Assembly (NCBI GenBank): GCA_950106755.1
Contig: OX467089.1
Coordinates: 28,625,345 to 28,689,344, forward strand
Direction: 5' to 3'
DNA length: 64,000 bases
Source: Climacium dendroides
Lineage: Eukaryota; Streptophyta; Bryopsida; Hypnales; Climaciaceae
The notes under the pieces were generated by a model. The model was not told where the DNA came from and made no database searches. It was given only the letters and a program-made list of their open reading frames with translations. Numbering within the stretch: position 1 is the first letter of the stretch; each line of letters opens with the position of its first letter. Positions 1 through 42,010 of the stretch are shown piece after piece. The position numbers and the translations under genes are program-made.

Positions 1-108
1 GGGGAACGGAACTGGAATCTAAATGAGGTCTTCGAGCAGTTGGAGAGACCTGATGAGAGCCCTACCATTGGATCCCGAGTGTATGAGACGGAACAAGAAG
101 GATTGTAA
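1..108 (+). pseudogene. C-terminal end of family A ORF
   Basis: The frame opens at base 1 and ends with TAA at 106-108. It encodes the conserved family A tail (GERN..NLNEVFEQLERP, then ETEQEGL). The same tail ends the ORFs at 17138-18817 and 32865-34548. Most of the gene lies to the left of the window, so intactness cannot be judged. No function is known; see the 17138-18817 entry for the full domain layout. Confidence 0.8.
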
Positions 109-1982: not shown

Positions 1983-2913
1983 CACTACTACCCCAGGATC
2001 TTACTAATTTCGGTCCTAGGTACCCATGTAGACCAATCCGTTTAGGACTATCTACGTGTATCTTTAATCCTATCCGGTTTAGTTTAGCCTCTCTTTCACC
2101 ATCACAAGGGTTGCCGCTTGATTTTAAGATTGGTAGGCCCACCACTCCTTCCAAAATTTATAGTGGCTGAAGACCCATTGACCTACTTCCTAATCTTCTA
2201 ACTACTACGGATTCGGTTTGGTCCTTCACAACAATCCAGATGATAATCTGGATTGCAAATCACACAAAGATCTCCCCCGTACGATTCTCTTATACTACAA
2301 CGACCTTGGAGGTCAATTCCTATCCGTACGAAGTTAGGTGGTTACAAGTAGACCCATCCATTCCAACATCTACTAAAAACTTTTCCGATTATTAGCTAGG
2401 GCAGTGAGACCTCACAAGAGATTGGACACTCAACTGGATTTCCCACCCGGGAATTCTAGCGCGACGAAGGAATCCCTCCCTATCTGTCTAGCCTAACAAC
2501 GGTTTTATCATCCGGAATCCTAAACTCTAGGCGTGCTGAGGAACTGAAGTTTACTCCCAACTCTTTGCTACCTACTCACATACACTTAGAATAAAAAAGG
2601 AAACACCAAAGGGAGAAGAAAATCACTCCCAATTCTATTTACACCCTCCTCACTCTTTATCATACAATGTTGCCTCATGCGGAAGAGACATACAATAAAA
2701 AAGTAAATAGAAAACTTCAAGAGATTGCAGAAGAAGATTTTTTCTCCCCTTACTCTTCTCAAGGACAAAACCCTAAAGTACAAAAAGGCAAAAAGCGCCA
2801 CGGAATCTCGCTGCATTTCAGGCCGGACTTCCAATCCTACCTACTACTCAGTTGGATCGGAATAGGATCCTGATCCATTCTAAGTCTCCCTAATGTGTAC
2901 AATCCTAACTAAT

Positions 2914-4596
2914 TTACAAATCTAATCCTAAGGTAGGACTCTTCGGATTGGCTTCCATCTGCTCAAAGACTTCACTCAGGTTCTGATTCCGTTCTCCATC
3001 CGTAGGTTTAGGGGTCGGGTCGCCTTGGTCGGAATCGGGCGTAGACTCCAAATCAATCGCGGACTTTGATGTGTTGGCCGCTATTGGTACTTGTTCAAAC
3101 TTTTTGGACTTAGGAGTCCTATCCTTTCCCTCCTCTGGAACTAACTCATCCGGAGACAACTTCGGTAGAGAGAGATTTGAGAGTTGGATTTCCTTGGAGC
3201 ATGTAGCCCCAATCAGTTTCCGGCTACTCTCTTCAATCCGGTCCGCAAATGTCTGCGCCTCCGTCATTATTGCCTTGATCCGCTCGGCATAATCTATGAG
3301 AATTCTCACTATCTTAGAACCAGATAGTTTCTTCTCCTTCTGTATCTCTTCGTTGAACAACTTAGCTTTAGTGGCGGCCATCCCGGATACTCCTAAAGTG
3401 TCCTTCACCTGCTCAGCTATCTTCCGAGTCTCCTCCACCATTTCCCAAGTGGCGGTCACATCCTCCTTCAAGGCGAAGGTTTCTACCTTCAAGGTATCCG
3501 CCTCCTTCTGCAAACGGATTATCTCTTTTTCCTGCTTTCGGGCCTCAACCAAATGGGTGATGCACTCTGCTACCTTCTTCGGCAGCGTGCTATCCGGTGG
3601 CACATCCACTAACCTTCTGATCACCGCCAAGGTCCGGTTCTTGATCTCCCAATCCGCTTGGACGCTGTAGAGGATGGCTATTAAGTTGTTAAATGGATCC
3701 TGGGGATCCATTTCTTCTTCAAGGACAGTCTTCATCTCTTCCATTCTTCCCTCCGGAGCTGACTTGTCGTGATTCGGTGGCGTCCCTTGCTTGTAGGGAG
3801 GCATCATCTTCTGTTGCTTGATGGGTGGCAACAGAGCCTCTTCCTCCTCTTCTTCCGTTTCCGGATTCGATTCGGGAATGGATTCCACTTCATCGTCTAT
3901 CTTTGACTCTTCGTATTTAAAGAGGACTTCTTGGGTCCTCTACTCTTTCTCTTCTGCACTAGTCAGGAGTTGGTAGTTATAGTACAAGTGGAAGAGGTAG
4001 GGGCATACCGGAGTAGCCCTACTCTTCCCCGTTCTCCTAATGAGTTGGGAGACCAAATTGAAAACAATCCGGATCCAGTCAATGTTCCGGATTCCACATA
4101 GGGAACCAAAAATAGTGTTACCAAGGGTAATCGTTACCCTAGTTGGCTTTTCCGGGTGGAGGACCGGAACTAGGAACTGAAGAAGGCGGCGGTGGCAGTC
4201 GTCTATGCAATCCTCGATTACATATCCGTCCTTTGGATTGGGGGCACCTTGGAATTTGCTTCAGATGAACTCATCCTTCCGGCCTACCATTCCTAGACCA
4301 CCTACCCGGAAGTTATACACCGCTCTCTATACTTCTTCAGTCCAAAGGGATGGATTCCCTTGCAAGGTGTTGTCGAACTCATTGGACAACTTGCCCAAGA
4401 GTTCTTTTACCATTCGTTTGTCTCTTTGTCCCTAGGGTTTCTCCACAAACCCTTGGCAACCCATGGAAGTTAAATTTTCCATGAGTTGGGCCTTTTCCAG
4501 TTCTTCGGAGGGAATAACCGGAATTACTTTCCAGAGCTTTACCTCAACCGGAACGGAGCCAGCTGATTCCGCTCTCTTCCTATGCAACAACATCAT
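2914..4596 (-). pseudogene. Family D transposon protein, stop-damaged
   Basis: The ORF starts at an ATG matching the MPLLHRKR-type start of the second D copy (here MMLLHRKR). It carries the conserved MGCQGF signature, the PF20167-like region (…VLHPEKPTRVTIT…), then an acidic stretch, a coiled coil and the KAKLF block. The C-terminus has AIDLES followed by acidic residues, then GERNQNLSEVFEQME. The last 324 codons (3888-2914) are open. Upstream there are in-frame stops, including KP-stop-G and KE-stop-R at positions where relatives have tryptophan. The family role is unknown. By layout it could be a nucleic-acid-binding or gag-like protein, which is inference. Confidence 0.75.
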
Positions 4597-4854
4597 GGAC
4601 ATAGATTGTTTCACTCCAATACCTTTCCGATTCTACCTTACTCTCTCCTAGATGCATGTCTTGTTCCTCACTTTCCCTCTCCGATCTCAACTAGAAGTAG
4701 TATCTATAACATACGCTATCAAGTTTTACGGGTACACTCTCACATACTACTATACAAATACTACACGGGAAAATAAGGTACTGGAAACAAAGGAGAAAAC
4801 AAAGAGCGCCTAAATCGCGAAAAAATGAAAAGAGGTGTGACTAGTAAGGCCAGT

Positions 4855-4863
4855 CCTTAAATA
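4855..4863 (-). promoter_or_regulatory. TATA box upstream of D1 ORF
   Basis: TATTTAAGG on the minus strand lies about 260 bp before the ORF start. It is identical in position and sequence to the box at 20341-20349 in the other D copy. Confidence 0.55.
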
Positions 4864-5140
4864 GTCTCAGGACCTCGTACTAGCCATTATGACCTTTTCC
4901 AGTTCTGATGGCTTGACATCCGGTCTTACCCTAATCTGGTTCATAGACCAAATTCGGATGGATTTCCGTTCCCGTCCAATTTGAACTTTGGGTTGGATGA
5001 GATCTGATTCACCTATTATTTTATTTTCCATGTATATTTCTGGTTTTCTTACAGCTCTTAATCAGATCCGGTTCCTTTCCACTAGTTTCTGCTTCAACCT
5101 TTAGATAAGCTAAGTAAAACAAAAAATTCACGTTGCGGCA

Positions 5141-10147: not shown

Positions 10148-10438
10148 AGTAGACAGGTTCCAAAATCCTGTTGTGACAACTCATATTTTTTATTTTTTTT
10201 CGTTTACCTTTTTGAGTACAACGGAAATTAGAAATAGGTATCTGGATCCAGCTAAAAGGAGGGAGATAAATAAAAAATAGTCACAAGAGAACCTTACGGA
10301 ACTAATCCGGTTCTAGGGAGAAGCGGACCGGATTGGATTTCCAACCGGATTCTCCTTGACCGGATTGGAGAGAACCGGATGACAAGGACCAGACCGGATG
10401 TCCGACCTGCCATAATGACCAGTCCAGGGCGTCAGGAC

Positions 10439-10447
10439 TATATAAGG
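10439..10447 (+). promoter_or_regulatory. Upstream TATA box of A2
   Basis: TATATAAGG lies about 320 bp before the ORF and is conserved in all A copies that retain the 5' end. Confidence 0.6.
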
Positions 10448-10765
10448 CCTGACCCTGTCCATTTTCAAGTCTTTGGATTTCACGTGTTGACGTTTCCTGT
10501 TTTAGCGCCTGATCCTTTCCGTTACAGCCGCGAGGAGCTGAAAGTGTGAAAGAGTCCGGTAGTAAGTGAGAGGGGTGATGGGTGAGACGGAGAGATCGCC
10601 TCTGGGCACGAGTGGGTGAGACTTGAGCGCGAGCGGATACGGAACAGCGAGAGGCTGAGAGTGTGAGCGCACAAGGAAGTTGTTTTGCAGGTGGAGCGGA
10701 AGACCAGAGTGTGAGCGCTCCCTCGATTAGGTCAGAAGAGAGTGAATCCGGGTAGGGCCGCCCTC

Positions 10766-12445
10766 ATGCCGCGGCTGAATCGGAAGAGACCAAGCTCTAG
10801 CACCCCACCCCCGAGTGAAGTAAAGTTAAGAAAAGTGGTTCCGGTCATGCCAACCAAGGAATCGGAACAGGGAGAACTCAGGGATGACTTAGCATCCATG
10901 GGTTGTCAGGGATTAGCCTTGAAACCTTGGGGTTTCAAGGATGAGAGGATGATTAGGGAGCTCCTAGGTGGCGTATCGAACGAGTTCGATAACACCCTGA
11001 GAGGGAATCCGGTCCAGTGGACCGAGGATTTGTGGCGAGCCGTCTACGGATTCCGAATGGGAGGACTCGTGCTTGCCAACCAGAAGGATGATTTCATCCA
11101 GGGCAAGTTCGGAAGTGTCGTGAATCCGAAGGATGGCTACGCGGTAGAGGACTGTATCGATGACCAGGAGCGTCGCTTGCTACAATTTCTTGTTCCGGTC
11201 TTGCATCTGGAAAAGCCCACCAGGGTGACCATCACCTTGGGTAACACAATCTTCGGAGCGCTGCACGGAAATCGGAGAGTAGACTGGGGCCGGATCTTCT
11301 TCGATCTGGTGTCCCAGCTCACTGCAAGAGTAGGAAAAAGTAGGGCCACCCCATTGTGCCCTTACGCATACCACCTCTACCAGCAACAAGAACTGCTGAC
11401 GGAAGTGGAGACGAAGGTTTGGAAGGCCTAGGAGCGGACCATGAAGTATGGTGAATCCGAGTCCGACCAGGAAGCGGATTCCGGGAACGAAACCGAGGAG
11501 GAGGAAGAAGAAGAAGAGGAAGAGGAAGAACCACAGTTCACCTCCAAGAGGCAGAAGACCACGTCGACCCGAAATCGAGGAACGCCTTCGGTTCAACCCC
11601 GGCCGCGCAAGATGGAGGCTCCAATCGGACCGGATATGCCATCCAGATCGGGAACCGGAGATCCGTTCAACGAGTTGGTTGGGATCCTCTACGGAATCCG
11701 GGCGGATTGGGAAATCAAGAAGCGGACGATTGGGGAGATCGTGAAATTGATTGGAGCGGAACCAAACAGTTAGCTGCCACTCCGGGTAGCTGAGAATATC
11801 ATCAATCCGGATGAGTTCCGGAAGATAAAGGCGAAAAGCAAGCGAATGCATGATGAGGTTGACACCTTCAAAGCCGAGCTTTTCGCCTTGCTCGAGAACG
11901 CCACCGCGACAAGGGAGATGGCGGAGGAAATGAAGAGGCTGGCCGCGGAGGTGAAGGATGTGCTCGGAGAACCCGGAGCCGCGATCACCAAGGCGCGCTT
12001 GTTCGAAGAGGAGGTGCACAAGGAAAAGAAGATATCCGGAACAAGGGTGGTGCACATCCTCACCGATTTTGAGGAGCAGATGGAGAAGCTCCTGTTCAAG
12101 GCACGGGAGTTAGTGGATCGGATCGTGGAGAGCAGCCAGAAGCTGACAGAGATTCCGGTTCGGCTCTCTGAACTTTCACTTCTGGGCTTGTTTCCGGAAG
12201 AGGCAGCTCAGGAACCAGGAAAGAACAAGACGGCCCAGTCAAGCAGGGTACATAAGAAGACGCCCTCGACCGGACTGCAGCCGATCGACTTAGACTCCCC
12301 AGAAACTGATGAAGATCACCCGGTTCCACCTCCGGATGGGGAACGGAATCGGAACCTAATTGAGGTGTTCGAGCAGTTGGAAAGACCTGCCGATAGTCCT
12401 ACCATCGGATTTCGAGTAGGCGAGGCAGAATAGGAAGTTTTGTAG
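10766..12445 (+). pseudogene. Family A transposon protein, copy A2
   Basis: The frame runs 560 codons from ATG (MPRLNRKR) with no frameshift but three in-frame TAG codons: 11429-11431, 11771-11773 and 12431-12433. Sister copies have glutamine codons (CAG or CAA) at these places. Layout: basic start, MGCQGLALKPWGF, PF20167-like region about residues 80-215, Glu run, Lys/Arg patch, DPFNELVGILYGIRADW block, coiled coil, TKARLF…SGTRVVHIL block, PIDLDSPET motif, GERNRNLIEVFEQLE. An antisense reading of the Glu-rich part gives a long spurious minus-strand ORF, which I left out. The function of the family is not established. Confidence 0.8.
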
Positions 12446-12560
12446 AAATGGGAGTTAGAAGTAGGAACCGGAATAGAATCCGGTTAGGATTAGGTAGGAC
12501 CGGATTGTCAGCGCCTTCAGAGGCGGAAATCGTGTATTCACTTTTTGCTTTTGCTTTTTG

Positions 12561-12569
12561 TATATAAAA
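12561..12569 (+). promoter_or_regulatory. Downstream TATA box of A2
   Basis: TATATAAAA follows a CTTTTTG repeat about 115 bp after the ORF. It is placed as an LTR promoter would be if the ORF lies in U3. Confidence 0.55.
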
Positions 12570-14853
12570 CAGTCTCTGAGCTGGAGACTGAGAGAGTTTT
12601 TTTGCATTTCTTTGCGTGCTTTCCATTGATCTGGCTTTGTGTGTTTTTCCCGAGTATTGGCAGGAGTGCACGGAGTTGGAGTCAGAGGGTATGTACGGGT
12701 GTGTTGGCAGAGTTCTCCCTTTGATGTGTCTTTCCAGTTCTAAGTACATGTGAGTAGGTTATGAAGAGTTAGGAGTGGATTCCAGATCCTTAGCATCTAC
12801 AGAAGTTTTGCATTTCGGATGAGAAAGCCGTTGATTAGGCTAGGCGGATAGGGAGGGATTCCTTAGCTGCGCTAGAACTCCTGGGTGGAAAATCCGGTTG
12901 AGTGCTTGACTCCTGTAAGTTCTTGCCACCATTGTTGGTAAACGGAAGAGCTTGGTAGAGGTTGGAATGGACGGGTGCACTTGTAGTCACTTAACTTTGT
13001 ACGGAACGGATTTACCATCAAGGTCGTTGTAGTATGAGAGGATTGTACGGGGGGTCTTTGTGTGACTTGTGATCCGGATTGCCATCCGGATTGCTGTGAA
13101 GGACCAAACCGGATCCGGGTTAATTAGGGGATTAGCGGGTAGGAGAGTGGGTCTTCAGCCACTATAAGTCACGGAAGGAATGGTGGGCCTACCACTTTCA
13201 AAAGCAAGCGGCGAACCTTCTGATGGTAAAACAGAGGCAAAACTAAACCGGGTACGGAAGGGTGGACCGGAACGGATCCGCCCAGGAGGACACTTAGGAC
13301 CGGAAGTTGTAGGGTCCTGAGTTGGGAAGTTAGTCAATAAACCGGAAAACTAGTGAAACCGGAATTAGGATAAAATCTGGTCGTAGTCTTCCGGTTGGTT
13401 TTGGGTGTTCCGGTTTTCAGAGGTAGAACCGGAAATTAGAATTTAAGGGTTAATTGGGTTTAGCTCTTTGTTAGAGTTAGCTACTTCACAGGATCTCGTG
13501 GGTTCGATCTTTAGGGTCATTTTGTTATGCTCTAGAGTGATTTTTGTGAATATAATAGGGAAATTGCTTACTCTGTGCTGCGACACCTACCGATCCAAAG
13601 GAGGGATGTAAGGCGAGTGATTGCCGGGATGGCCAAGACCAGCAACTGTTGGAATTCTTAGGTCCGATTTTGTATCTGAAAAAACCCATCCGAATCACAG
13701 TCATGGTGGCCAATACAATTTTGGGGACATTTGGAAATAGGGAGAATCTAGCTCTAAGACCTGTTAACTGAAGGAGGATTATTCACTCGATAGTTGACAA
13801 GTTAGCAAGTGTCACAGTACAAAGTAAGTAAATTCCCCGTTATACTCTCCAAAACCACTCTAGAGCATAACTAAGTGACTCTAAAAATTGAACCCATGAG
13901 ATCCTGTGAAGTATCTAGCTTCATTAAGCGATTTAAACTAAGTCAGTATACAAACTTACTTTCTGATCCTATGTCTAAAACCGGAAACACTATAATACCC
14001 GGAAAGCTGAGGAACGGCTTTTTCCCACCATTCCGGTCCTACTAACTATCTGGTCCATATAACACCACCACCCCAGAATCCTACAAAATCCGATCCTGGT
14101 TACCTCTATAGACCAATCCGTTTCAGTCTACCTACATATATCCTTAATCCTATCTAGTTTAATTTAGCCTCCGTTTTACCATTAGAGGGATCGTCGCTTG
14201 ATTTTAACAGTGGTAGGCCCACCACTCCTTCCGTAATTTATAGTGGCTGAAGACCCACTATCCTATATTCCTATCTCCTAATCTTCTAATTACTACGGAT
14301 CCGGTTTGGTCCTTCACAACAACCTAGATATTAATCCGGATTACAGGTCACACAAAGACCCCCCCATATGACCTTCTTATATTACAATGACTTCGGGTAT
14401 CTGTTCCTATCCGTGCGAAGTTAGGTGGTTACAAGTACACTCGTTCGTTCTAACATCTACCAGAGCTATTCCGTTTACCAAATATGGCAGCAAGACCTCA
14501 TAGGAGATCGGATACTCAACCGGATTTCCCACCCAGGAGTTCCAATGCAAGTAGGGAATCCCTCCCTATCCGCCTAGCCTAACAACGGTTTTCTCACCCG
14601 GAATCTCGAAACTCTAGATGTGCTGAGGAATTGAAGTGCACTCCCAACTCTTTACTATGTGCTCACATATACTTTAAAAGAAGAACGGAAACACCAGGGG
14701 AGGAAAGTCAGTTGTGTTTCTACTTCTACACTTCTTACTTCCTATAATACGACACTAACACATAGAAGAGGCATACAACAAGGAAGTGAATGGAAAAACA
14801 CAAGAGAATTTGCAAAAGAGGACTTTTCCCCCCTTTTCCTTTTCCAAGGACTG

Positions 14854-14862
14854 GTTTATATA
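14854..14862 (-). promoter_or_regulatory. Downstream TATA box of D2
   Basis: TATATAAAC on the minus strand lies about 145 bp beyond the ORF end, preceded by TTTTG as in family A. Confidence 0.5.
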
Positions 14863-16817
14863 CAAAACCCTAAAGTACAAAAAGGCAAAAAGTACTACGG
14901 AATCCTGCTGCATTTTCAGGCTGGACTTCTGGTCCTTTCTACTACTCTGCCGGATTGGAACATGATCCGGTTCTGTCCTAAATCCTCCTAGTAAACTTAA
15001 CTAATTTACAATCCTAAATCTAAGGTAGGACTCCTTGGATCGGCCTCCATCTGTTCAAAGACTTCACTTAGGTTTTGATTTCGTTCTCCATCGGTAGGTC
15101 TAGGGACTGAGTCACCTTGATCGGAATCTGGCGTAGACTCCAAATCAATTGCACACTTTGGCGTATTGGCCTGTATGGGCACTCGTTCGGACTTCTTGGA
15201 TTTAGGAGTCCTATCCTTTCCCTCCTCTGTAATTATCTCATTCGGAAAAGATTCCGGTAAGGAGAGGCCCGACAGGTGGAACTTCTTAAAACATGTACCC
15301 CCTGTCAGCTTCCGGCTACTCTCTTTAATCCAGTCCGCCGATATCCGTGCCTCCATCATCACCATCTCGACTCTCTTAGCATAATCTATGAAAATCCTTA
15401 CTATCCTAGAACCGGATAGTTTCTTCTTCTTCTGCACCTCCTCATCGAATAGCTTAGCCTTGGCGGCGGCCATCTTGGATACTCTTAAGGTGTCCTTCAC
15501 CTGCTCAGCTACCTTTTGAGTTTCTTCCACCATTTCCCGAGTGGCGGTTACATCTTCCTTTAAGGCGAAGATTTCCGCCTTCAAGGTATCTGCCTCTTTT
15601 TGCAGCCGGACAATCTCTTCTTCCTACTTTCAGAACTCGACCGAATTGGTGATACAGTCAGCTACCTTTCTTGGCAGTGTGCTGTCGGGTCTCGCTCCCA
15701 CTAGTTTCCCGATCGCATCCAAGATCTGGTTCTTGATCTCCAAGTCCGCTTGAATGTCGTAGAGGATGGCTATTAACTTATTGAATGGATCTCTGGGATC
15801 CAATTCTTCCTCAGTAATAGCCTTCTCCTTCTCTTTTGGAGTCGACTCGTCGTGACTTGATGGCGTTCCTCGTCCGTGGGGAGGCGTCGTCTTATGTCGT
15901 TTAATCGGCGGCAACAAACCCTCTTCCTCCTCCTCTTTCGTTACCAGATCCGATCCAGGAACGGATTCCACCTCTTCGTCTTCCTCTGACTCTCCGTATT
16001 TCAGGAGAGCTTCCTAGGTTTTCCACTCCTTTTCTTCCGTATTCGTCAAGAGCTGGTGATTATGGTATAGGTGGTAGAGGTAGGGGCATACCGGAGTAGC
16101 CCTACTCTTCCCTGTCCTCCCAATGAGCTGGGCAACCAGATCAAAAATAATGCGGGCCCAATCTACGCTCTGGGTTCCGCATAGGGAACCGAAAATTGTG
16201 TTACCAAGGGTGATCGTCACCCTTGTCGGCTTCTCCGGGTGAAGGACCGGAATCAGGAACTTAAGAAGACGATGGTGCCGGTCATCTATGCAATCTTCAA
16301 CTGCATATCCATCCTTTGAGTTGGGGACACTTTGGAATTTGCCCCGGATGAATTCATCCTTCCGGCTGGCCATTCCAAGACCCCCTACCCGGAAATCGTA
16401 CACCATCCTCCAGACTTCTTTGGTCTAAAGGGACGGATTCCCTTGCAAGGTGTTGTCGAACTCATTAGACAACTTGCCCAAGAGTTCCTTCACCATCCGT
16501 TCATCCTGGAATCCCTAGGGTTTCTCAGCAAACCTGTGACAACTCATATTTTTGATTTTTATTTGTTTACCTTTTTGAGCGAACTGGAAATTAGAAATAG
16601 GTATCCGGATTCATCTAGAGAGAAAGATAAATCCAAAAATAGTCACAAAAGGACCTTACGGAACTAATCCGGTTTTAGGTAGAAGCAGAACGGATTAGAT
16701 GTACAACCGGATAAGTATTTCCGACCGGAATCGTGTTGACCGGATTGGAATTAACCGGATGTCAAGAACCGGACCGGATATCCGACCGGTCATAAAGACA
16801 GTCTAGGGCGTCAGGAC

Positions 16818-16826
16818 TATATAAAG
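16818..16826 (+). promoter_or_regulatory. Upstream TATA box of A1
   Basis: TATATAAAG lies 312 bp before the ATG at 17138. The same sequence recurs at 32553 and, on the minus strand, at 57908. Confidence 0.65.
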
Positions 16827-17137
16827 CCTGGCCCTACCCATTTTCAGGTCTCTGGATTTCCACGTGTTGTCGTGTCCTGATTTAGCGCCTGACGTTTCTA
16901 TCGTTGATCACGGCAAGGAAGAAGAAGTACAAGAGGGTCCGGAAGTGAGAGAGGGGTGTGAGACGGAGAGATCCCCTCCGGACATGAGTGGGTGAGACCT
17001 TGAGTGCGAGCGGATACGTGAGAAACTAAGAGTGTAAGCACGCTAGTAGATTAGTTTACAGGCGGAGCGGAACATCTAAGTGTCGGCGCTCCCTTGTTAG
17101 GACTATAGAAGAGTGAAAACCGGGTAGAGCTACCCTC

Positions 17138-18817
17138 ATGCCGCGGTTGAACCGGAAGAGAGGTTCTAACACCCCGCCCCCAAGTGAAGTAAAGCTTAGA
17201 AAAGTGGTTCCGGTCATGCCGACCAAGGAACCGGAACAGGGAGAGCTCAGAGAGGATTTGTCGTTGATGGGTTGTCAGGGGTTAGCTTTGAAACCTTGGG
17301 GTTTCAAAGATGAGAGGATGGTTAGAGAAATCCTGAGTGGCGTATCGAATCAATTCGATAACACCCTGAGAGGGAATCCGGTCCAATGGACCGAGGCTTT
17401 GTGGCGGGACGTATATGGATTCTGGCCAGGAGGACTCGGGCTTGCCAACCGGAAGGATGATTTCGTCCAGGGCAAGTTCGGAAGCATAGTAAACCCGAAG
17501 GACGGCTACGCGGTCGAAGACTGCCTCGATGACCGGAAGCAACGCCTGCTCCAGTTTCTGGTTCCGGTTTTGCATCCGGAAAAGCCCACCAGGGTGACTA
17601 TCACCTTGGCTAACACGATTTTCGGAGCGCTGAGCGGAACCCGTAAAGTAGACTGGGGCTGGATCTTCTTTGACCTGGTGTCCCAGCTTACTACAAGAGT
17701 GGGGAGAAGTAGGGCTACCCCACTGTGCCCTTATGTGTACCACCTCTACCAGCAACAGGAACTGCTGACGGAGGTGGAGCTGAAGGTATGGAAGGCCCAG
17801 GAGCGGACCATGAAGTACGGAGAATCCGAGTCCGACCAAGAAGCGGATTCCGGAAACGAAACCGAGGAGGAGGAGGAAGAAGAAGAAGAGGAAGAGGAGG
17901 AACCGTATGTTCCCGCCAAGAGGCAGAAGACCACACCGGCTCGGAATCGAGGAACGCCCCCGAGACATCCGCGGCCGCGCAGAGGTGAGACTCCAACTGG
18001 ACCGGATGTGGCATCCGGATCGGGAACCGCAGATCCGTTTGACGAGTTGGTTGGGATCCTCTACGGAATCCGGGCGGATTGGGAAGTGAAGAAGCGGACG
18101 CTCGGGGAGATCGCGGAATTAATCGGAGCGGAACCGGACAGTCAATTGCCGCGGAAGGTGGCTGAGAGTGTTATCAATCCGGAAGAGCTCCGGAAGATGA
18201 AGGAGGACAGCAAGCGGCAGCACGATGAGGTGGACACCCTCAAGGCCGAACTATTCGCGTTGCTTGAGAACGCCACCGCGACAAAGGAGATGGCGGAAGA
18301 AATGAAAAAGTTGGCCGCGGAAGTAAAGGACGTGCTTGGAGGACCCGGAGCTGCAGTCACCAAGGCGCGCCTGTTCGAAGAGGAGGTGCACAAGGACAAG
18401 AAGATATCCGGAACCAGGGTGGTGCACATCCTCACCGATTTTGAGGAGCAGATGGAGAAGCTCCTATCCAAGGCACGGGAGTCAGCGGACCGAATCGTGG
18501 AGAGCAACCAGAAGTTGACAGAAGTTTCGGTCCGGCTCTCAAAAATTTCTCTTCCGGACTTGTTTCCGAAAGACGTAGCTTAGGAGCCGGGAAAGGACAA
18601 GACGCCCCAGTCAAGTAGGGCAAAGAAGGAGACGCCCTCGACCGGACATCAGCCGATAGATTTGGACTCCTTGGAAGCTGAGGAAGAACATCCGGTTCCA
18701 CCTATGGATGGGGAACGGAACCGGAATCTAAATGAGGTCTTAGAGCAGTTGGAGAGACCTGATGAGAGCCCTACCATTGGATCCCGAGTGTATGAGACGG
18801 AACAAGAAGGATTGTAA
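17138..18817 (+). pseudogene. Family A transposon protein, one in-frame TAG
   Basis: This is the least damaged family A gene: 559 residues with a single TAG at codon 482 (18581-18583), where sister copies have CAG. From the N-terminus it has a basic start (MPRLNRKR), the MGCQGLALKPWGF signature near residue 44 and a hydrophobic domain at about 80-215 (LLQFLVPVLHPEKP, TIFGALSG, DW, ATPLCPYVYHLY) resembling PF20167. These are followed by a Glu run encoded by GAG/GAA triplets (17863-17900), a KRQKTT basic patch, DPFDELVGILYGIRADW (about 298), a coiled coil (about 350-400), TKARLFEEEVHKDKKISGT (about 407), PIDLDS (about 506) and GERNRNLNEVLEQLE. There is no catalytic triad, zinc knuckle or RT motif. 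A gag-like or DNA-binding role is inference. Confidence 0.85.
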
Positions 18818-18933
18818 AAATAGGACTTATAGATAGGAACCGGAATAGAATCCGGTTAGGATAAGGTAGGACTGGATTGTCAGCGCCTTTAGAGGCGAAA
18901 ATCATGTATTCACTTTTTGCTTTTTGCTTTTTG

Positions 18934-18942
18934 TATATAAAA
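18934..18942 (+). promoter_or_regulatory. Downstream TATA box of A1
   Basis: TATATAAAA, just 3' of tandem CTTTTTG, lies 117 bp after the ORF and 1.0 kb before the end of the unit. It would be the LTR promoter if transcription of the parent element starts here. Confidence 0.6.
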
Positions 18943-19553
18943 CAGTCTCTGAGCTGGAGACAAGAGGGAGTTCTTTTGGTATTTCCTTGTGTACTTTCCT
19001 TTGACCTGACTTTTTGTGTAATTTTCCCGAGTGTTGACAAGAGTGCACAGAGTCAGAGTAGAAAGGTGAGTACGGAGGTGTTGGTAGAGTTTCTCCCCTT
19101 GATGTATATTTCCGGTTCTAGGTACATGTGAGTAGGTTATGAAGAGTTAGGAGTGGATTCCAGTGCCTCAGCAGCTACAGAAGTTTAGCATTCCGGGTAA
19201 AAGATCCGTTGATCAGGCTAGGCAGATAGGGAGGGATTCCTTAGCTGCGCTAGAACTCCTGGGTGGGAAATCCGGTCGAGTATCCTGACTCCTGTGAGGT
19301 CTTGCCACCGTTGTGAACGGAAGAACTTTTGTAGATGTTGGAACGGACGGATGCACTTGTAGCCACCGAACTTCGTACGGAACGGATCAGTGTCAAGGTC
19401 GTTGTAGTATGAGAGGATCGTATGGGGGGTCTTTGTGTGACCTGTGATTCGGGTTGCTATCCGGATTATTGTAAAGGACCAAACCGGATCCGTGTTAGTT
19501 AGGGGATCAGTGGATAGGAAAGTGGGTCTTTAGCCACTATAAGTCACGGAAGG

Positions 19554-19571
19554 AGTGGTGGGCCTACCACT
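19554..19571 (+). other. Conserved hairpin 1 in A1 3' segment
   Basis: AGTGGT and ACCACT form a 6-bp stem around the loop GGGCCT, which contains palindromic GGCC. The same 18 bases recur in other A copies and in family D (for example 14209-14226, reverse orientation); family B has a weakened version near 30289. Confidence 0.5.
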
Positions 19572-19591
19572 TTCAAAAGCAAGCGGCGAAC

Positions 19592-19612
19592 CCTCTGATG
19601 GTAAAACAGAGG
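19592..19612 (+). other. Conserved hairpin 2 in A1 3' segment
   Basis: CCTCT and AGAGG pair across the loop GATGGTAAAAC, 20 bases after hairpin 1. Family D keeps a pairable variant (CCTCT…GGAGG) and F keeps the GGTAAAACAGAGG half. Confidence 0.45.
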
Positions 19613-20340
19613 TGAAACTAAACCGGGTACGGAAGTAGGGACCAGACCGGATCCGCCCAGGGAGGTACATAGGACCGGAAGTTGCAGGGTCCAGAATCGA
19701 GAAGTCAGTCCAGAAATCGGGGAACTAGTAAAACCGGAAGTAGGAAACAGTCCGGTCGAAGCTTTCCGGTTGATTTTAGATGTTCCGGTCGTTAGAGGTA
19801 GAACCGGAAAAGTAGAATTGAGGGGTTTAATTGAGTTTATCTCCTTGTTAGAGTTAGCTACTTCACAGGATCTCGTGGGTTCGATCTTTAGGGTCATTTT
19901 GTTATGCTCTAGAGTGATTTTTGTGAGTATAATAGGAAAATTGCTTACTTTGTGCTGCGACAAAACCCTTGGCAACCCATAGAAGTTAAGTCTTCTATGA
20001 GTTGGGCCTTTTCCTATTCGTCAAAGGCACTCACTGGAACTACCTTCCGGAGCTTCACCTCAACCAAAATGGGTCCAAGCGATCCTGCTCTCTTCCTATG
20101 TAACAGTGGCATGGAAGTAGGTTGCCTCTCACGGATTCCTTACCGATTCTACCTTACCCACTCCTAGCCGCACAATTCGTTCCTTACTTCTCTCTCCGAT
20201 CTCAACCGGAAGTGGTGTCACACATTATCAAATTCTACAAGTACGTTCTCACACTACACGAAGGCACCAAGTGCTGAAAACAACACAAGGAGCGCCTAAA
20301 TCGTGAGGAAATGAAAAGAGGTAAGATTGGCAAGGTTAGT

Positions 20341-20349
20341 CCTTAAATA
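20341..20349 (-). promoter_or_regulatory. Upstream TATA box of D2
   Basis: TATTTAAGG on the minus strand lies about 230 bp before the ATG at 20112. Confidence 0.55.
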
Positions 20350-21798
20350 GTCTCAGGACCCCGCCCTGGTCAATATGACTATTTCCGATTCTGATGGCTT
20401 GACATCTAGTCTAACCCTAATTCGGTTCATAGGTTAATTTCGGATGGGTTTCCGGTTTCCACCAATTTGAACTTTTGAATTGCATTGGATTCGGTCTATC
20501 TACTATTTCATTTTCCATATATAATTCTTGTTTTTCCTATAGCTTTTAATCAGATCCGGTTCCTCTTCACTAGCTTTCGCTCCAAATTTTGGATAAACTA
20601 AACAAAACCAAAAATTCACGTTGCGACAGCAAGTATCATTGTTAACAAGAAGTTTAGTCCTATCTGCCCGTATTCCTTCCATGTATACTACTAGAAAGAG
20701 ATCCTAAACGCACTGGAGGCAATTTTGTACTGGAAGGGATAGAACTATCTAAAGTATGGGCTTGCATCGAATGTCGAGCCTACGCAATCTGATTCGAAGG
20801 ATGAGGAACACGACCAAGAGCAGAAGTAGGAACAAGTGTCCCTGATTCCTATTGGACACAACTGGAAGACCATTGACTCGAGTTCTCGAGGGAATCCGGA
20901 ACCGGCACTAGTAGAGCAGCCCCGGAATTCAATATCGAGGCTGAATTAATTCGAGGCAACCATCACCTAGCTCTGGAATGTTAAAGAGATCAACGAAAGG
21001 TTGGCGGCAATAATACGGATGATCTACATCAGATTGGGCCTTCCAAACGTGGCGAAAGAGGAGGAGATACTTGAAATGCTAAATCGGAGGCTGGATCCGG
21101 AAGTGGTGCAAGCATTGCAGAACCAACTCCTGACGGTGGAACAGGAACGGGACCACTTTCGGGAACACGCGAAGTGGGCGGAGAAAGAAGCGAGTGATGC
21201 CTAGTAGAAGACGGTGGAGGCAACAAATCTGGTCTGGAGCATGAAGGATCTAATTGGCCAACCAACGGACATGATGACAAGGGCCACGCTTTCGAACAAC
21301 AAATTAGCGACGGAAACTCCCGTTTCTGGAACCAAGATCGTCAACATCTTGGTGGACTTCGAGGCTCGGATCGAGACCATGTTAAAGGAGATGCGTGAAT
21401 TGGTAGGAAATTTTGATCCTCTAGGAGGGTTGGATCTGGAGTTCTTCAACAACCTAACAGGTGGGAGTTTTGCCGAGTAAAGAATGCAGCTGCATCCGTC
21501 CTCTTAATCAACCATTAAAGTTGGACTAGTAGTTGGAACTTCACGGAGGGGTTTTATCGTGACGGATGTTTTGCCTATTTTAAGACCGGATCTGTAGGCC
21601 TCTCCACAAACTACACTAGTGAAGGACATGATGCCGACTACATCTGCCCTCAGGCCAACAGTGGTAAACCTCTTCCCGGTTTCTTCCGGCTTGGTGTTAG
21701 TAGGATTGGTAGGAGGTGTAAGGAATTCGGCTTGGATCAACCTAGAAAGATTCGGTCACATGCAACAGAAGTCACCTCCATAGCCATCGGTATCCACC

Positions 21799-23767: not shown

Positions 23768-25425
23768 CCACCCCTTCTAATTTGGTGGACCTCACATTGC
23801 AACAGTGACCAAATTGGAGGAGACTACTTCTAAACAAATCCAAGCACGAGGAGTTAGAAGAGGAGGTGCAGGAGGTAAACCCATAGTGCAAGCAGGAGGA
23901 AAACCTCCACCACCCTCAAACCCAGTCAACTACAAAGAACACACTAGTCCGGGTGTCGCAACCTGACTTTTTGATTTTTTTTCTTTATCGTGTTTTGAAA
24001 TACAGAAACCGGAAAAAGTATATCCGGATTGGTACCGGAAGGAGAAAAAAATTAGAAGTTAGAATAATTAGGGAAACAAGCAATCATCAACCGGAAAAGA
24101 GATAGAATGGATATCAGAAACAAATTTGGTCTAGATCTAAGCCGGAGGAACGGATCCAGGATCTGTGCTCAAAAAAGCGGAAAAAAATAATGACTAGGTT
24201 TCTAGTGTACAAAAAGCCTCCTTTAGGGTTTTAACCTCCCATTTGCTTCTGAGAGCTCTAGCCTTCCCACGCTCTCAGTTGTTTAAACCACTTCTATACG
24301 AGTATCTGCGTATATTTGTTTTCTTTGCTCTGATCGGAGGTAGAAGTGAGGGAAGAGTGGGTTTTGTGAATTTGAGTGTGGTTGGTTGTCGCAGCACAAG
24401 GTAAGTGAAATTCCCTATTATACTCACAAAAACCTCTTTAAAGCATAATAAAGTGACTCTAAAGATCGAACCCAAGAGACTCTATAAAGTGTTTTGTGTT
24501 ATTAGGTGATTTGAGGAAAGTTTTCTAATTCCATTATTCTTAGTTATGCCTCTCTCACCCTTTTTTCCCAAATACCGGATGATTTCATGATTCTCCTATA
24601 AACTAATCCGGTCCAAATTGACACTGACCCAACTCAAACTTAATTGACAACCTTCAAGAACCAACCCGGAATTCACACTTCCGACCGGATCTCATACTAC
24701 TTTAATCGAGGACTTCTTTCCTCAATTTCTATTCCGGTTCTATTTAACCTCTGTCGGAACTTCAGAGGGATCTGTCACTTATTTTCAGAGAGGTAGACAC
24801 TCCTCTCTTTCCGGTTTTTTTTTATAGTGATGGAAAATTCACTAACCCAATTTATTCTCCTATTCTAACAGGATCCAGTTTGATCTTCCACAGCAAACTG
24901 GAAGTAATCTCGGCTTGTAGGTCACACAAAGATCCCCCGTACGACCCTTACTTACTACAACGACCTTACTATCTTTTGTAATCCGTACGAAACTACGGTG
25001 GCTACAAGTGCGCCTGCTCGTACTAGCATAATCTAAAGTTCTTCCGTTTACTTTTTCAGATGGTGAGACCTCTCAAGTGTTCAGAGGCTAACCCAGACAT
25101 TCCATCTAGTAGCTCTAGTATAGTTTGAGAATCCTTTCTCTTACTGTCTAGCCTAGCACTGGTTATCTCACCCGGAATTATAAACTCTAAACCTACTGAG
25201 GTGTCATGACTCACTCCCAACACTTACAACTTGTTCACATACACCTGCAATCACAAGAAGACAACAAGGGGAGAAGATCCTCTCACACTCTGCTCATCTA
25301 TACTCAATCATTCTCTCCCTCCCTTATCCGGCCAATCTTTGGGAAGACAAGGAAAACAATAGACAATACACAAGAAACAGCATGTACAAGAAGGAAAAAC
25401 TCCTAGTCTCAGTCTTGAGACTTGA

Positions 25426-25433
25426 ATTATATA
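25426..25433 (-). promoter_or_regulatory. Downstream TATA box of B2
   Basis: TATATAAT on the minus strand lies about 130 bp after the ORF end. It is conserved in B1 and B3. Confidence 0.5.
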
Positions 25434-25563
25434 CAGAATTTACAAAAAGGTCTCCCCAGAAATCCGGCACTGATCCGGCCGAGATTTTCGGATTTGAACT
25501 TTTTCTAACTTTCCGGAATGAGATCCGGTCTAACAAAATTTCCTACTCCTAATTTCTAACTAC

Positions 25564-27311
25564 CTATCCCTCCTGAGGGGGTCCACCACTATTTGGAGTA
25601 GCCATGGGGGAGAGCTCACTCAAATTTCTACTTTTATCCCCTCCTTCCGGAACTCGCTCCGATTCTACAAGAGAAGTTACTTCTGTCCTCGTCCGTGGGG
25701 CTTCTGAAGTAGAAGTCCTTCCAGCCTCCTTCTCCTTCGATATTGGAGTTTCAAACTTCCCCTCCAATATCTCTAACTCATCGAACTCATCCGGGATTGA
25801 AATCCCAGATAAAGAGACTAATCCACTCTAGAATTTCCGGACGGTATCCTCTAATCCCTTTGCGTCCTTCCGAAATTCCTTCATCGCCTCTTCTAATTCC
25901 CCGGTGAAGTTAGCCAAGATGCGAGCGATATGGATACCTGAAGGTTTCAAATCCTTATGTATCCCCTCATCAAACAATTTGGCCTTCGCCATTACCTCAC
26001 CGGATGCCCCTACTACTGTCGTCATCCGGTTGATGGCAGTCTTGGTCTCTTCCTGCAAGGACATTGCGGCCTTCACTTGGTCGCGACAAGCATCCAAGTC
26101 CCTCCGGTAGTTTTGGATTTCTCCTCGCAACCGGACCACCTACTCATCTGTTTCCCGTTGGTTGATGTTCTGCTTCAGCAACCTATCCTCCAACTCTTTC
26201 ACTTCATCCGGATTGCTGATGCAATTCGCCACGGCTTCCGTCAGAGAACTGGTGGGAATACTTCCTACCAAATCTGCCACCTCACGCAACATCGTGGTCT
26301 TCACTTCCCAATCCGCTCTTACTGTACTGAGAATCCGGATTAGGTCGTTGTATGGACCTGTCAGGTCCATCAACTGGGACGATGGAACAGGTCTCGGTCT
26401 AACCGCTTCCACCGGCTCCTACTTCTTCGGAATGACCGGTTCCACCACTTCCGGTCCCTTATCCTTCCGAAGCCCTGAAGGGGACCCCCTCAAACTAGGC
26501 GTCCTCTTTCTTCTTCAGTGGAGAGGAATGTCCTCTTCCTCCTCTTCTTTTTCTTCCCAATTCCTCTTCTTAGGGTTCTCACCCTTCTCCTCCGGTTCCG
26601 TCTCGGATTCCTCATCCGATCCTCCACACGTCCGGAGAGCCATCTGCGCCCTCCACTCCTTGTTCTCTTCCGACGTCAGGAGACTCTGATTCTTGTATAG
26701 GTGGAAAAGGTAGGGACTTACCGGAGTAGCTCTATTCTTTCCTACATTTGAGACTAAGACATTCACCAACGTTTGAATGAATGTTGCCCAATTCATCCGC
26801 TTTTCTCCGCTCAGGGCCCCAAAATCGCATTTTCGAGTGTGGAAGTCACCCGAGTAGGTTTTTCCGAATGTAAAATCGGAACCACAAACTCCAGTAGTCA
26901 CTTGTGCCGCACATTGACGCAGTCCTCGATTGCGTACCCGTCCTTGGGGTTAGCCGCTCCCCGGAACTTCCCTCGCACGAAATCTCCCTTCCGGCTGGCC
27001 TGTTCCGCGCCGCCTTCCTCCAACTCGTATACTTTCCTCCAGACTTCCCTGGTCCACATGGGCGGAACCGGCCGAAGAGTGTTGTCGAATTGGTTAGGGG
27101 CTCCTTCGATGAACTCCCTTACTATCGCCTTGTTTCGAAACCCCTAGGGTTTCCCCAGGAACCCTGCACAACCCATGGCAGAGAGATCCTCCATCAATTC
27201 GACTTTCTTGTACTCAGTACTTGGCTCTAACGGAGCCACTTTCCTCACTCTAATTTCTATCCTCTAGGCGTTTGCTGGTCCCTGATTTCGTACGCGTTGT
27301 AGCTGCGGCAT
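25564..27311 (-). pseudogene. Family B transposon protein, copy B2
   Basis: It starts MPQLQRVRNQ, comparable to MPRLNRKR of family A. MGCAGFLGKP is followed by an in-frame TAG where tryptophan is expected. A frameshift near 26835 separates the N-terminal part from the well-kept remainder (LSGEKRMNW, CPYLFHLYKNQSLL, acidic linker, DLTGPYNDLIRILSTVRADWEV, coiled coil, KAKLFDEGIHKD, ILANFTGELEE). The tail is GGDKSRNLSELSPMATP. Several glutamine positions are TAG. Two of these TAG codons (after NA near the start and after VRKF) are shared with B1. Confidence 0.75.
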
Positions 27312-27654
27312 TTGTCTCTCTTTTAGCTCACTACCTCTCTTCTCTCCTAGCCGCACGTTCCGTTTCCTCACACGCTCTTCTCGACCTTGGCCGATTTCGC
27401 TCAATGCACAAGTGCTGCGGCGCTCCCTTTTCCTCTCTTTCTCTTTCTGACTTTCCGCCTTGCTCATGCACTCAGTTCTGTTCTAATCTCTGTGTCCGTG
27501 TAAAGAAAACAAACGCGCTCACTTACAACTCTCAGACTTTGCACAATTCACACAAAACACACGCAATTTGCAGACACACACTCGAAGCACTGAGAGCACG
27601 CCAAGTACGTTGGTGCTCCCAGGTGCAAATGACAGACAAATCCTAAAACAGTCT

Positions 27655-27663
27655 CTTTTATAC
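27655..27663 (-). promoter_or_regulatory. Upstream TATA box of B2
   Basis: GTATAAAAG on the minus strand lies about 345 bp before the ATG at 27311. It is identical to the B1 box. Confidence 0.6.
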
Positions 27664-28045
27664 CCTGAAAACCTCATCATTACTATTTTTTTCGATTTTC
27701 CGGATGCGAATCCTGGATCCGTTCCTCCGATTAGGGGACTAGACCGGATACGTTTCCGATATCCGTTCCGCTCCCTAATCTGGTTCATTCAGGGCTTATG
27801 TTTCTAGGCTTTCTAACCCTTGGCTTTTCTTTCTTCTTTCATGCTAATCCGGGTCTACTTAATCCGGATTCCGTGTTACAGAACACGATAGAGAGAAAAA
27901 TCAAAAAGTTAGGTTGCAACATTGGTTGAGATTGGGTGAGCATTGTGAGAGTCTGTGAGAGGATTGGCACAGGTGGTAATTCAGTTGAGACCGAGGAGAG
28001 ATTGTGAGGGCATCCGGTGAGGTAATGACAAAGGCCAAATTTATG

Positions 28046-29674: not shown

Positions 29675-32552
29675 TCAAGTCTCAAGACTGAGAGGAGGAG
29701 TTTTTTTTCCTTGCAAAATTTTGCGTCTTCTTATATTTTCTATTGTTTTTGTACCTTCCCAAAGAGTGGTCAGGTGAGGGAATGAGAGATTGAGTACAGA
29801 TGAGTGAGTTGTAAGAGGAATTTCTCCCCTTAGTGTTTATTTTTTGATTGCATGTGCATGTGAACGGGTTGGAAGTGTTGGAAGTGAGTCATTGCACCTC
29901 AGTAGATTTAGAATTCATTATTTCGGGTGAGATAGCCAATGTTAGGCTAGGTAGTTAGGGAGGGGATTCTCAACTATGTTAGAGCTACGAGATGGGATAT
30001 CTGGGTTAGCATCCAATCGCTTGAGAGGTCTTGCCATCTGAAATAGTAAACGAAAGGACTCTAGATTGCATTGGTACAAGCGGATGCACTTGTAGCCACT
30101 TTAGTTTCGCACAGATCCAAAGAAGCATTAAGGTCCTTGTAGTTGGAGAGGACCGTATGGGGGATTTTTGTGTGACCCGCAGATCGAATTCATTTCTGGT
30201 TTGTTGTGAAAGATCAAACCGGATCCTGTTAGAATAGGGGATTAGATTAGTCAAGTGAGTCTTCCATCACTATAAGTTCCAGAAGGAGTGGTGGGCCTAC
30301 CTCTCTAAAACCAAGTGGCGGATCCCTCTGAAGTGCCAACAAAGGCTAAACAAAACAAGAACGGAAACCGAAGAAGAAAGAGATCCTTGGGTGGTTATAG
30401 AAAAATCCAGACAGATGTGTTAGTTCTGGCTAGTCTTGAATTGATTGAGTAACCGGATTTTGGTTCAGGTCAAGTAGAAGTATAGACTAGATCAGTGATC
30501 ATTGATTAAGAGAGTTATCCGGTTTTGGGGGAAAGGCGAACCGAAGAGAGAAAGAAAAGGATACGTATTGATATTCACCCTCAAACTACCTAGTAACACG
30601 AAACACTTCACAGAGTCTCTTGGATTCGATCTTTAGAGTTACTTTGTTATGCTTTAAAGTGGTTTTTGTGAGCATAGTAGGGAATTTCACTTACCCTATG
30701 TTGCGACACCAAAGAGCAATGGCTCCGGCATCGAAGGCCGGAAATCAATGAAGAAGTTCCAAAAGGGCAAGTGATTAGTGTGTATGGTAGTTGTAGTTTT
30801 AGCTTTTAGGGATTAGGTTAGGATTCACCGTAAATCTTGGGGTGGTTAGTAAATGGTCACCTTGATATTCGGGTGCCTTTTCGGCCGTTTAGGGTGTTGA
30901 CTTTGGTTTTGGTTTTTAAGGGCGGGCAAGTTAATTGCCCTCTATATTCCTCCAGTTAACCCTTAATTCTCACTAAAGGCCCACTTAGAGTAAACCGCTC
31001 CGGAATCGTTCCCACGAGGACTCGAGGCTCACGGATTCATAGGCTAACTCGATCTAAGCTTTCACTTTCTCTCCTACTTACTAATCCGGATCAGAGGTCC
31101 GGTCCGGCCGCTAGTACCGGATGGGTTTCGAAAAAGTCCGGAAACCGCTCAATTGCCCCTTCCGGGATCCCTGGGTTTAGGTGACGAGTGGCCAGATCCA
31201 CCGTCCAGATGTTTATTGTGTCCGGAAACACTCTTTCTCTCTCTCTTTCCCTCTTCAACCTCTACTACTAATGCTAACTTAACTCTCAGGGACCAGAAGT
31301 ATCCTACTATTCCGTCTCCTCACAAATCCAGAATGCTTACCAGACCAGGTCACGCAGGGACGATCAAGGACTACAACGACATTCTAGCATCAACCCAACA
31401 CTGAGCCTCCCATCGACCGGGTGAATATCCTCGCACTCTCTTGGACGTTGTGCCGGGGCTTTTGACTCTGTCTATGGGGAATTCCGGCATCCAGAATTCG
31501 GGCACGTCTTGCAAACTCCCGTCCACGAAAGCTGCTAGCAGCCTCTCAAATACCCTCACACCTAAGGCCGTATCCTACCCTCAGGCTATACCGACATCCA
31601 GACAGGTAGTACACTAACACTACTGTCGGAACAATCCGGCCGATCTCCCCATCAATCTAGTGACGTCCGGAAACTACTCACAAAGTCGACTCCTATCAGT
31701 CAAGGTAAGTTCTCAGCATCCGGAAAAGGCACGAATGGACCCACCCCCCCACAAGCATGCACCGAATACAAGTAAGAGAATGAAAAGCCTCCAAACACTT
31801 AAATTAAGCTCAAAAGGTACAAGCTGAAAATAATGGGACGGATGTGGATGACCACAAAGGTCCACCAAAACCAACTTATACTAAAACTAACATCATCCTA
31901 AAAATCCCACAAAACATTCCTACTGGTCTGCTAGATTTCCGGTAATCTACTAGATCCTATTTTTCCGGCTTTGACGGCCGGACTCCAGTACTGTCACAAG
32001 TATGTACAACACTGCCCTCTATTCCCCTGCATCCTTATCCGTGGGAGGAATAAGGTCCTTTAATGAGTCAAGGTTTATCTGCTTCTGGCTACTCCTTGGA
32101 GAAAACAAAGCAAGGCCCCTTGCTCCCCAACTTGGACCTCCCACGATATTGGTACCTCTGTCTACATTCCGGATTCCGACTATTGGAACTTCCGGACTTC
32201 CTCGAGAATCCTTCCGGGTCTGTTTGTGGCGGGAAGAAGACTGTACCGACCAAATTCCCCAAGTCTCCGGTGTGACAACTCATATTTTTTTTTTTTATTT
32301 GTTTACCTTTTTGAGCGAACCGGAAATTAGAAATAGGTATCCAGATTCATCTAAAGAGAGAAAGATAAATCCAAAAATAGTCACAAAAGGACCTTACGGA
32401 ACTAATCCGGTTTTAGGTAGAAGCGGAACGGATTAGATTTCCAACCGGATAGTATTTCCAACCGGAATCGTTGACCGGATTAGAGAGAACCGGATGTCAA
32501 GAACCGGACCGGATATCCGACCGGTCATAAAGACAGTCCAGGACGTCAGGAC

Positions 32553-32561
32553 TATATAAAG
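32553..32561 (+). promoter_or_regulatory. Upstream TATA box of A3
   Basis: TATATAAAG lies 312 bp before the ATG at 32865, the same spacing as in A1. Confidence 0.65.
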
Positions 32562-32864
32562 CCTGACCCTGCCCATTTTCAGGTCTTTGGTTTTCCACGT
32601 GTTGTCATTTCCTGACTTAGCGCCTGACATTTTTGTCGTTACCACGGCAAGGAGAGAAAGTACAAGAAGGACCGGAAGTGAGTGAGGGGTGTGAGACAGA
32701 GAGATCTCCTCCGGACATGAGTGGGTGCGACATTGAGTGCGAGCAGATACGGAACCGTGAGAGATTGAGAGTGTGAGCACGCTAGTAGGTTAGGCGGAAC
32801 ATCAGAGTATCAGCGCTCCCTTGTTAGGACTGTAGAAGAGTGAAAACCGAGTAGAGCTACCCTC

Positions 32865-34548: not shown

Positions 34549-34664
34549 AAATAGGACTTATAGATAGGAATCGGAATAGAATCCGGTTAGGATAAGGTAG
34601 GACCGGATTGTCAGCGCCTTCAGAGGCGGAAATTATGTATTCACTTTTTGCTTTTTGCTTTTTG

Positions 34665-34673
34665 TATATAAAA
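34665..34673 (+). promoter_or_regulatory. Downstream TATA box of A3
   Basis: TATATAAAA lies 117 bp after the ORF, identical to A1. Confidence 0.6.
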
Positions 34674-42007: not shown

Positions 42008-42010
42008 AAA

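Follow-up and report, generated by a model that had tools for sequence, protein, structure and literature searches.

Plant long terminal repeats (LTRs) are, to our knowledge, usually regarded as non-coding. We analysed a 64,000-nucleotide stretch of the Climacium dendroides genome (C38:28625345-28689344; hereafter the window), which contains LTR-like units that each carry, in whole or in pieces, the same kind of protein gene. The closest analogue of this gene appears to be Sag of mouse mammary tumour virus (MMTV), in which Sag/Naf is encoded in the U3 part of the LTR and a promoter, P2, also lies in U3 (PMC9412291, in the passages cited here). Additional open reading frames (ORFs) of retrotransposons have been placed in the internal region (PMC7264820; likewise PMC11963269, in the sections drawn on). 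A literature search returned MMTV as the sole case of a protein ORF inside an LTR and no plant precedent.

The units in the window are LTRs, for the most part solo ones, from a group of Ty3/gypsy retrotransposons that have a conserved protein gene in each LTR and are probably of the Ogre/Tat/Athila (OTA) type; that this gene lies in U3 is the layout we consider likely. The resemblance to MMTV is one of layout: in both, an ORF would lie within U3 with its own promoter there, beside the other LTR promoter, and hence at both ends, the promoters of the plant element being predicted ones. MMTV is an animal betaretrovirus with env, whereas the plant element, with about 40 bp between pol and polypurine tract, has no room for an env-like ORF. 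Like the elements here, OTA elements have 5-bp target-site duplications (TSDs), LTRs of up to about 5 kb in non-chromoviruses and frequent extra ORFs, but these are described as lying up- or downstream of the polyprotein, and the relevant parts of the source describe none inside the LTR (PMC6317226). Retrosat2/RIRE8 likewise combines LTRs that reach about 3 kb or more with many solo LTRs and an extra ORF without known function, but its ORF0 lies upstream of gag-pol and is not placed in U3 in the text cited (PMC3485330, as excerpted). Grande and Retand also have an accessory gene. It is located between pol and the 3' LTR, in Grande with a promoter of its own, and is internal and antisense, whereas the gene studied here is in sense and inside the LTR (PMC7264820 and PMC11963269, for the portions used).

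Giant LTRs and their parent elements

Self-comparison of the window revealed eight complete TGT...ACA units from several LTR-like families (A to D), nested in one another. Inspection of their borders bore out what a sequence-only reading of this DNA had reported, with perfect 5-bp TSDs at seven of the eight (chance of at least seven in eight about 1e-20, without correction for the one base of freedom in border placement); unit names may differ between the two. That reading had also seen no second LTR, and we saw none inside any of the eight units: the first and last 400 bases of a unit share only short stretches of 9-39 bases, the best match covering 23 bases (E 4e-4). Seven of the eight are single LTRs with a TSD on both sides and no interior, i.e. 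solo LTRs. The family A unit on which most of the analysis centres is laid out as follows:

16535..19962, + strand: family A solo LTR of 3428 bp, beginning TGTGACAACTCA and ending TGTGCTGCGACA
16530-16534 and 19963-19967: its TSD, AAACC, the host being the family B LTR at 13810-20628
16818..16826, + strand: upstream TATA box, TATATAAAG
17138..18817, + strand: LTR gene, 560 codons including the stop; an in-frame stop at 18581-18583 leaves 481 open
17183..17827, + strand: N-terminal conserved domain of the LTR protein, about residues 16-230
18934..18941, + strand: downstream TATA box, TATATAAA
18818..19962, + strand: non-coding 3' part of the LTR, which would comprise the end of U3, R and U5

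The earlier reading had proposed a search for parents with paired LTRs. Across the genome (412.6 Mb, 123 contigs), this search yielded a family A element with paired LTRs and a TSD; for C, D and B-like LTRs it yielded junctions between LTR and interior. The A element (C37:2192960-2205629) is bounded by LTRs L036 and L037, shares the outer TSD TCCGC and encloses a 5819-bp (5.8-kb) interior between two A units, which differ at 1.6% of sites (56 of 3419, 53 of the 56 being transitions). Its primer-binding site (PBS), TGGCGCCGTTGCCGGGGA, comes after CGCAAAAATC, which follows the LTR, and its polypurine tract is GATGAGGAGGGGGTAA. The gag gene is a separate interior ORF (L037:192-1178) with Pfam matches to Retrotrans_gag and Ty3_capsid, interrupted by a stop ahead of the zinc-knuckle part, while pol (P0121) is open over 1227 codons, with Pfam domains in the order RVT_1, RT_RNaseH, Integrase_H2C2, rve. 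As the pol ORF ends about 40 bp from the LTR, no env-like gene lies between them. Neither a chromodomain nor a second RNase H appeared among Pfam matches at E<=0.01, a level at which weak domains could be missed. Paired LTRs with a TSD, a PBS and polypurine tract, gag, and the order reverse transcriptase-RNase H-integrase place family A in Ty3/gypsy; gag and pol domain order was checked in this family, and for D the PBS side of the junction. The possibility that the ORF of the units is itself the gag of a longer element falls away, since the Pfam gag match falls in an interior ORF of its own and the LTR ORF has no such match.

The polypurine tract also stands ahead of four other A LTRs, the adjoining interiors showing identities of 94, 94 and 93% over 1000 bp and 92% over 511 bp; the purine-rich sequence before the five A LTRs ends AGGAGGGGGTAA or AGGAAGGGGTAA. 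In family C, a PBS junction (C40:1166309) and a tract/LTR junction (C40:1172226) lie 5.9 kb apart, and the start of the 5' LTR was not found in the 101 bases inspected at its expected place. B-like PBS junctions lie at C38:28694794 and C41:821497, their LTR ends favouring B over C or A by only 1-4 points over about 105-112 bases. For family D, the LTR end followed by TGGTACGATTTC and TGGCGCC gave 13 matches at <=3 mismatches, against none in the control. A PBS right after the LTR end had been forecast; a PBS is there, beginning TGGCGCC, but it starts 9-12 bp farther on. The paired A parent and the C, D and B-like junctions support the proposal that giant-LTR retrotransposons left these units behind as solo LTRs, with a gene that would lie in U3.

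To the right of the window, C38:28694794-28710162 holds a PBS junction (LTR end nearest B), a 79% pol match and a polypurine-tract/TGTCGCA junction within 16 kb. A parent element of the B/C type, with further insertions nested in it, may account for this region.

Predicted promoters and proposed layout of the LTR

A genome search with the A unit gave 39 near-complete copies including the query (40 of 2228 candidates scored), a sample of the best-scoring copies rather than a random one. Excluding the query, 38 were read at both ends, and these together with three from the window make up an aligned set of 41 A copies. The upstream TATA box, 283 bp into the LTR and ahead of the ORF, is intact in 39 of the 41 and the downstream box in all 41; both are covered by the 14 spaced 20-base windows with the highest conservation in the LTR. 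The family C LTR has TATA boxes at 261 and 2490. A TATA box on either side of the ORF is thus present in A and C; in B we found the downstream box in one copy, with only TATATAT at position 105 of the 5' piece upstream, and no TATAWAW box was found in D (52259-55941), a point against the two-promoter layout proposed below.

A conserved 3' sequence of about 1 kb, likewise reported earlier, is shared by A, B and C, while the self-comparison gave no match between A and D there. Within it, past the second TATA box, lies a non-coding block of about 540 bp (19091-19629, with counterparts at 12713-13254 and 2071-2617) that is 75-78% alike in A and B, above most of the ORF DNA (64-70%). By sequence this block holds hairpin-like stretches, possibly leader or packaging RNA.

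From this arrangement we infer that the downstream TATA box is the probable start of the genomic RNA, with the U3/R border about 30 bp beyond it, so that U3 would span about 2.4 kb, leaving about 1 kb for R-U5. The upstream box would then be the gene's own promoter, placing the gene in U3 and driving its mRNA from any LTR, including a solo one. The gene lies behind the polypurine tract, in sense with gag and pol. Plus-strand DNA begins at the polypurine tract, and everything from there to the genomic promoter therefore turns into U3, of which each end receives a copy; each round of replication would place a copy of the gene at either end of the element. The LTR is 3.4-3.7 kb long because the gene is contained within it. 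Such long LTRs would promote LTR-LTR recombination, leaving hundreds of stand-alone gene copies that later decay. The gene would thereby make element and solo LTR alike into gene copies, and recombination between LTRs, usually viewed as a route of element death, would leave the gene behind.

As to origin, an accessory gene may once have lain between pol and an ordinary LTR of about 1 kb. A shift of plus-strand priming to a tract just behind pol would have drawn the gene into the LTR at once, turning a sense accessory gene plus a 1-kb LTR into a 3.4-kb LTR. This suggests one way for giant LTRs to arise.

An arrangement in which the upstream TATA box is the sole LTR promoter, the downstream box is unused and the gene lies in the 5' leader (R-U5) as the first cistron of the genomic RNA deserves attention, albeit as a rather unlikely alternative. 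The gene would then resemble ORF0 of Retrosat2 or ORF1 of Ogre. An upstream box 283 bp into the LTR would give a U3 of ordinary length, and its retention in 39 of 41 copies fits a promoter of this kind; moreover, in Retrosat2, whose LTRs exceed 3.2 kb, an extra ORF lies upstream of gag-pol (PMC3485330, in the portion used). On the other hand, the downstream box, which would be needless if unused, is kept in every A copy and has counterparts in C and one B copy, and translation of gag would be hampered behind a leader of about 3 kb whose first ORF has 560 codons. We therefore favour the two-promoter layout with the gene in U3.

The gene inside the LTR and its protein

The ORFs of about 560-700 codons reported for the units in the window were not borne out, as the longest ATG frame has 481 codons (17138-18583) and the other units reach 318, 297, 221 and 214. 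In the aligned A set, all 559 codons are open in three of 41 copies and 536-556 in four more. Across 820 pairs of these copies, dN/dS of the gene is 0.197 (0.20), with mean dS 0.200 and mean dN 0.039, as compared with 0.61-0.71 for three non-coding frames of the same LTRs. Differences fall on the three codon positions in the proportions 23/19/58%, against about one third each in the control, and gap runs per copy number about 2 per kb in the ORF versus 15 and 23 in its flanks (shared gaps being counted repeatedly). Between A and B or C, dN/dS is 0.16-0.20 in four computable stretches, where dS is saturated (1.7-3.9). Homologous proteins are encoded by all of families A-D. On these substitution patterns the LTR gene is real and bears the mark of purifying selection in family A. 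An ORF inside the LTR, in sense and under selection is what an MMTV-like U3 gene would present, and this is what we find.

Several observations weigh on the other side. With at least one in-frame stop in 38 of 41 copies, most solo copies can yield no full-length protein. In the closest A pairs, pN/pS is still about 0.27, and the seven most open copies have a mean ratio of 0.27 instead of a lower one; the clearer contrast expected under simple neutral decay of old copies is therefore not seen, and gene conversion or codon composition may contribute to the low ratios.

The absence of any Pfam family at curated cut-offs and of a known fold, together with the broken state of most copies, would also suit a captured host or foreign gene that hitch-hikes in the LTR without a function for the element. 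Given the dN/dS of 0.20 within A and similarly low values against B or C (at saturated dS), homologues in all four families and 198 related database proteins at E<=0.01, we regard such a passenger as very unlikely. It is highly improbable, too, that the gene has been kept through host use of solo-LTR copies (domestication) rather than by the needs of the element: the solo LTR L031, whose TSD is perfect, does have all 559 codons open and pN/pS is low in the closest pairs as well, but open frames are confined to three of 41 copies, two of them in LTRs that adjoin an interior (L011, L020), and no single conserved locus stood out. Maintenance by the element itself remains our preferred explanation.

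The homologues came from a protein search (198 at E<=0.01 among 7999 scored candidates) and from a search by profile (307 of 8000 at E<=0.001), and among the 120 relatives listed in each search none had a Pfam domain. The domains known from extra ORFs of OTA elements, namely the plant mobile domain, Transposase_28 and Athila ORF-1 (PMC6317226), were not seen in the LTR protein, nor among the families listed for its relatives (25 of 109). In the predicted structure, the N-terminal conserved domain is modelled with confidence as mainly alpha-helical, followed by an acidic stretch (231-297) of low confidence, probably a disordered linker, and by long C-terminal helices that we read as a coiled coil. 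A fold search of the PDB with this model gave no significant match, and neither fold nor family matches point to a function. With less assurance than for the gene itself, we propose that the protein is a trans-acting accessory factor of the element, most likely nuclear and acting in transcription, silencing or integration, rather than a structural protein.

The elements are rich in a short motif. In the LTR and interior of A, in C and D and in a piece of B, counts of ACCGGA, CCGGAA and CCGGAT mostly exceed those in dinucleotide shuffles 4- to 17-fold (e.g. ACCGGA 19 vs 1.2 in the non-coding LTR; CCGGAA 42 vs 4.7 in the interior), and (A/T)CCGGA(A/T) saturates LTR, LTR gene and gag-pol alike (16535-19962, 24387-27921, 52259-55941, L037:1-5819). 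Against synonymous-codon shuffles, WCCGGW is found 29 times in pol vs 7.9 (z 8.9), and the corresponding count in the LTR ORF is 16 vs 5.2 (z 5.6). Unrelated flanks (51 of 76 flank stretches kept) contain 0.58 ACCGGA per kb, whereas the LTR reaches 9.0 per kb and the interior 5.2; CCGG accounts for 26% of CpG in the LTR and interior of A vs 7% in unrelated flanks. In aligned LTR copies, CpG is lost in 9.9% of cells at CCGG sites vs 14.0% at other CpG, the loss in some other contexts, such as TCGA (8.9%), being as low as at CCGG. The motif is not exclusive to these elements: at 39000-50000, a stretch that holds a CACTA-type gene remnant, CGGA occurs 74 times vs 29 and CCGGAA 16 vs 2.4, ACCGGA only 3 vs 2.1.

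VANC proteins bind short motifs in the non-coding regions of VANDAL elements and cause demethylation (PMC12844716, in the passages available). By analogy, the LTR protein might be a sequence-specific anti-silencing or chromatin factor that targets (A/T)CCGGA(A/T), a suggestion we put forward as decidedly speculative and unlikely to be right. Were it correct, each solo LTR would be a self-contained gene plus target array. In any event, the LTR gene defines a protein family without known fold or function and with a candidate target motif.

Solo copies in the genome and in the window

Among the 38 A copies read at both ends, 21 have a perfect TSD, four match at 4/5 bases, seven show neither TSD nor interior and six adjoin an interior, five via the tract and one via the PBS; the C37 element supplies one of the five tract-bearing copies (its 3' LTR) and the sole PBS-bearing one (its 5' LTR). 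The pattern GACA + 4-20 bases + TGGCGCCGTTGCC has 11 exact matches in the genome and none in the reversed control. This PBS may be of the tRNA-Asp type, which would match OTA elements. Six of the 11 junctions share the spacer AAAAATC, the other five being without family assignment; the six comprise the C37 element and five more judged by short stretches at the LTR end, with best fits to C (C40), a diverged C unit (C2), A (C37:25626570, 86%) and B (C38 and C41). Polypurine tract plus LTR start, at <=3 mismatches, gave 74 matches vs two in the reversed control, of which 41 are A-type (TGTGACA or TGTGGCA) and 22 C-type (TGTCGCA) by our count. A LTR 5' ends at <=2 mismatches number 761, against 18 in the reversed control.

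Solo A LTRs per tract-bearing copy come to about 16 by pattern counts and about 5 by the copies read (25 solo-like to 5), both rough ratios, as decayed elements lose the tract and diverged LTRs escape the pattern. Retrosat2, with 429 solo and 162 complete copies, has a solo:complete ratio of 2.6:1 vs roughly 5-16:1 here (PMC3485330, as far as the cited part goes). LTR length has been tied to this ratio in earlier work (cited in PMC7251063, in the portion drawn on). The prevalence of single copies with TSDs (21 perfect and four near-perfect of 38) might suggest self-contained units moved by integrase in trans, the other option raised by the sequence-only reading, but solo LTRs with TSDs are the normal product of LTR-LTR recombination, and the paired A parent with pol and the LTR/interior junctions for C, D and B-like LTRs contradict this idea, to which we give next to no credence.

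The remaining units and homologues in the window are:

1..1257, + strand: family A LTR, 3' part; 5' end left of the window at C38:28623172, TSD 4/5
1982..5140, - strand: family B LTR, last ~250 bp of the 3' end missing at the left border
10172..13585, + strand: family A solo LTR, imperfect TSD CCTGT/CCTAC (3/5), ORF broken
13810..20628, - strand: family B solo LTR, TSD GCAAG, split by A 16535-19962
24387..27921, - strand: family C solo LTR, TSD TTGGT, in a diverged C unit (about 23954-30708, +)
32271..35695, + strand: family A solo LTR, TSD TCCGG, within a D-related unit (30945-35986)
36609..37827, + strand: further LTR-gene homologue (33% identity), known from its gene match
50484..61111, - strand: family C solo LTR, TSD CTGTG, split by A 51114-58201
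51114..58201, - strand: family A solo LTR, TSD GCCCA, split by D 52259-55941
52259..55941, + strand: family D solo LTR, TSD TCATA, ORF pieces with 34% protein identity to family A

At least six units of the window are inserted into other units of the same LTR group, including a triple nest of D (52259-55941) within A (51114-58201) within C (50484-61111). ORF pieces at 9740-9967, 13592-13837 and 20638-21399 belong to an older homologous unit, which seems to be the host of both A 10172-13585 and B 13810-20628. Outside the LTR group, CACTA-type remnants lie on the minus strand at 63167-63871 and 49231-49836 (matches to Transposase_21, E 4e-7, and DUF4216, E 6e-7, just under its cut-off), and a tandem repeat at 40299-40736 consists of about four copies of a 110-bp unit that are 91-93% alike.

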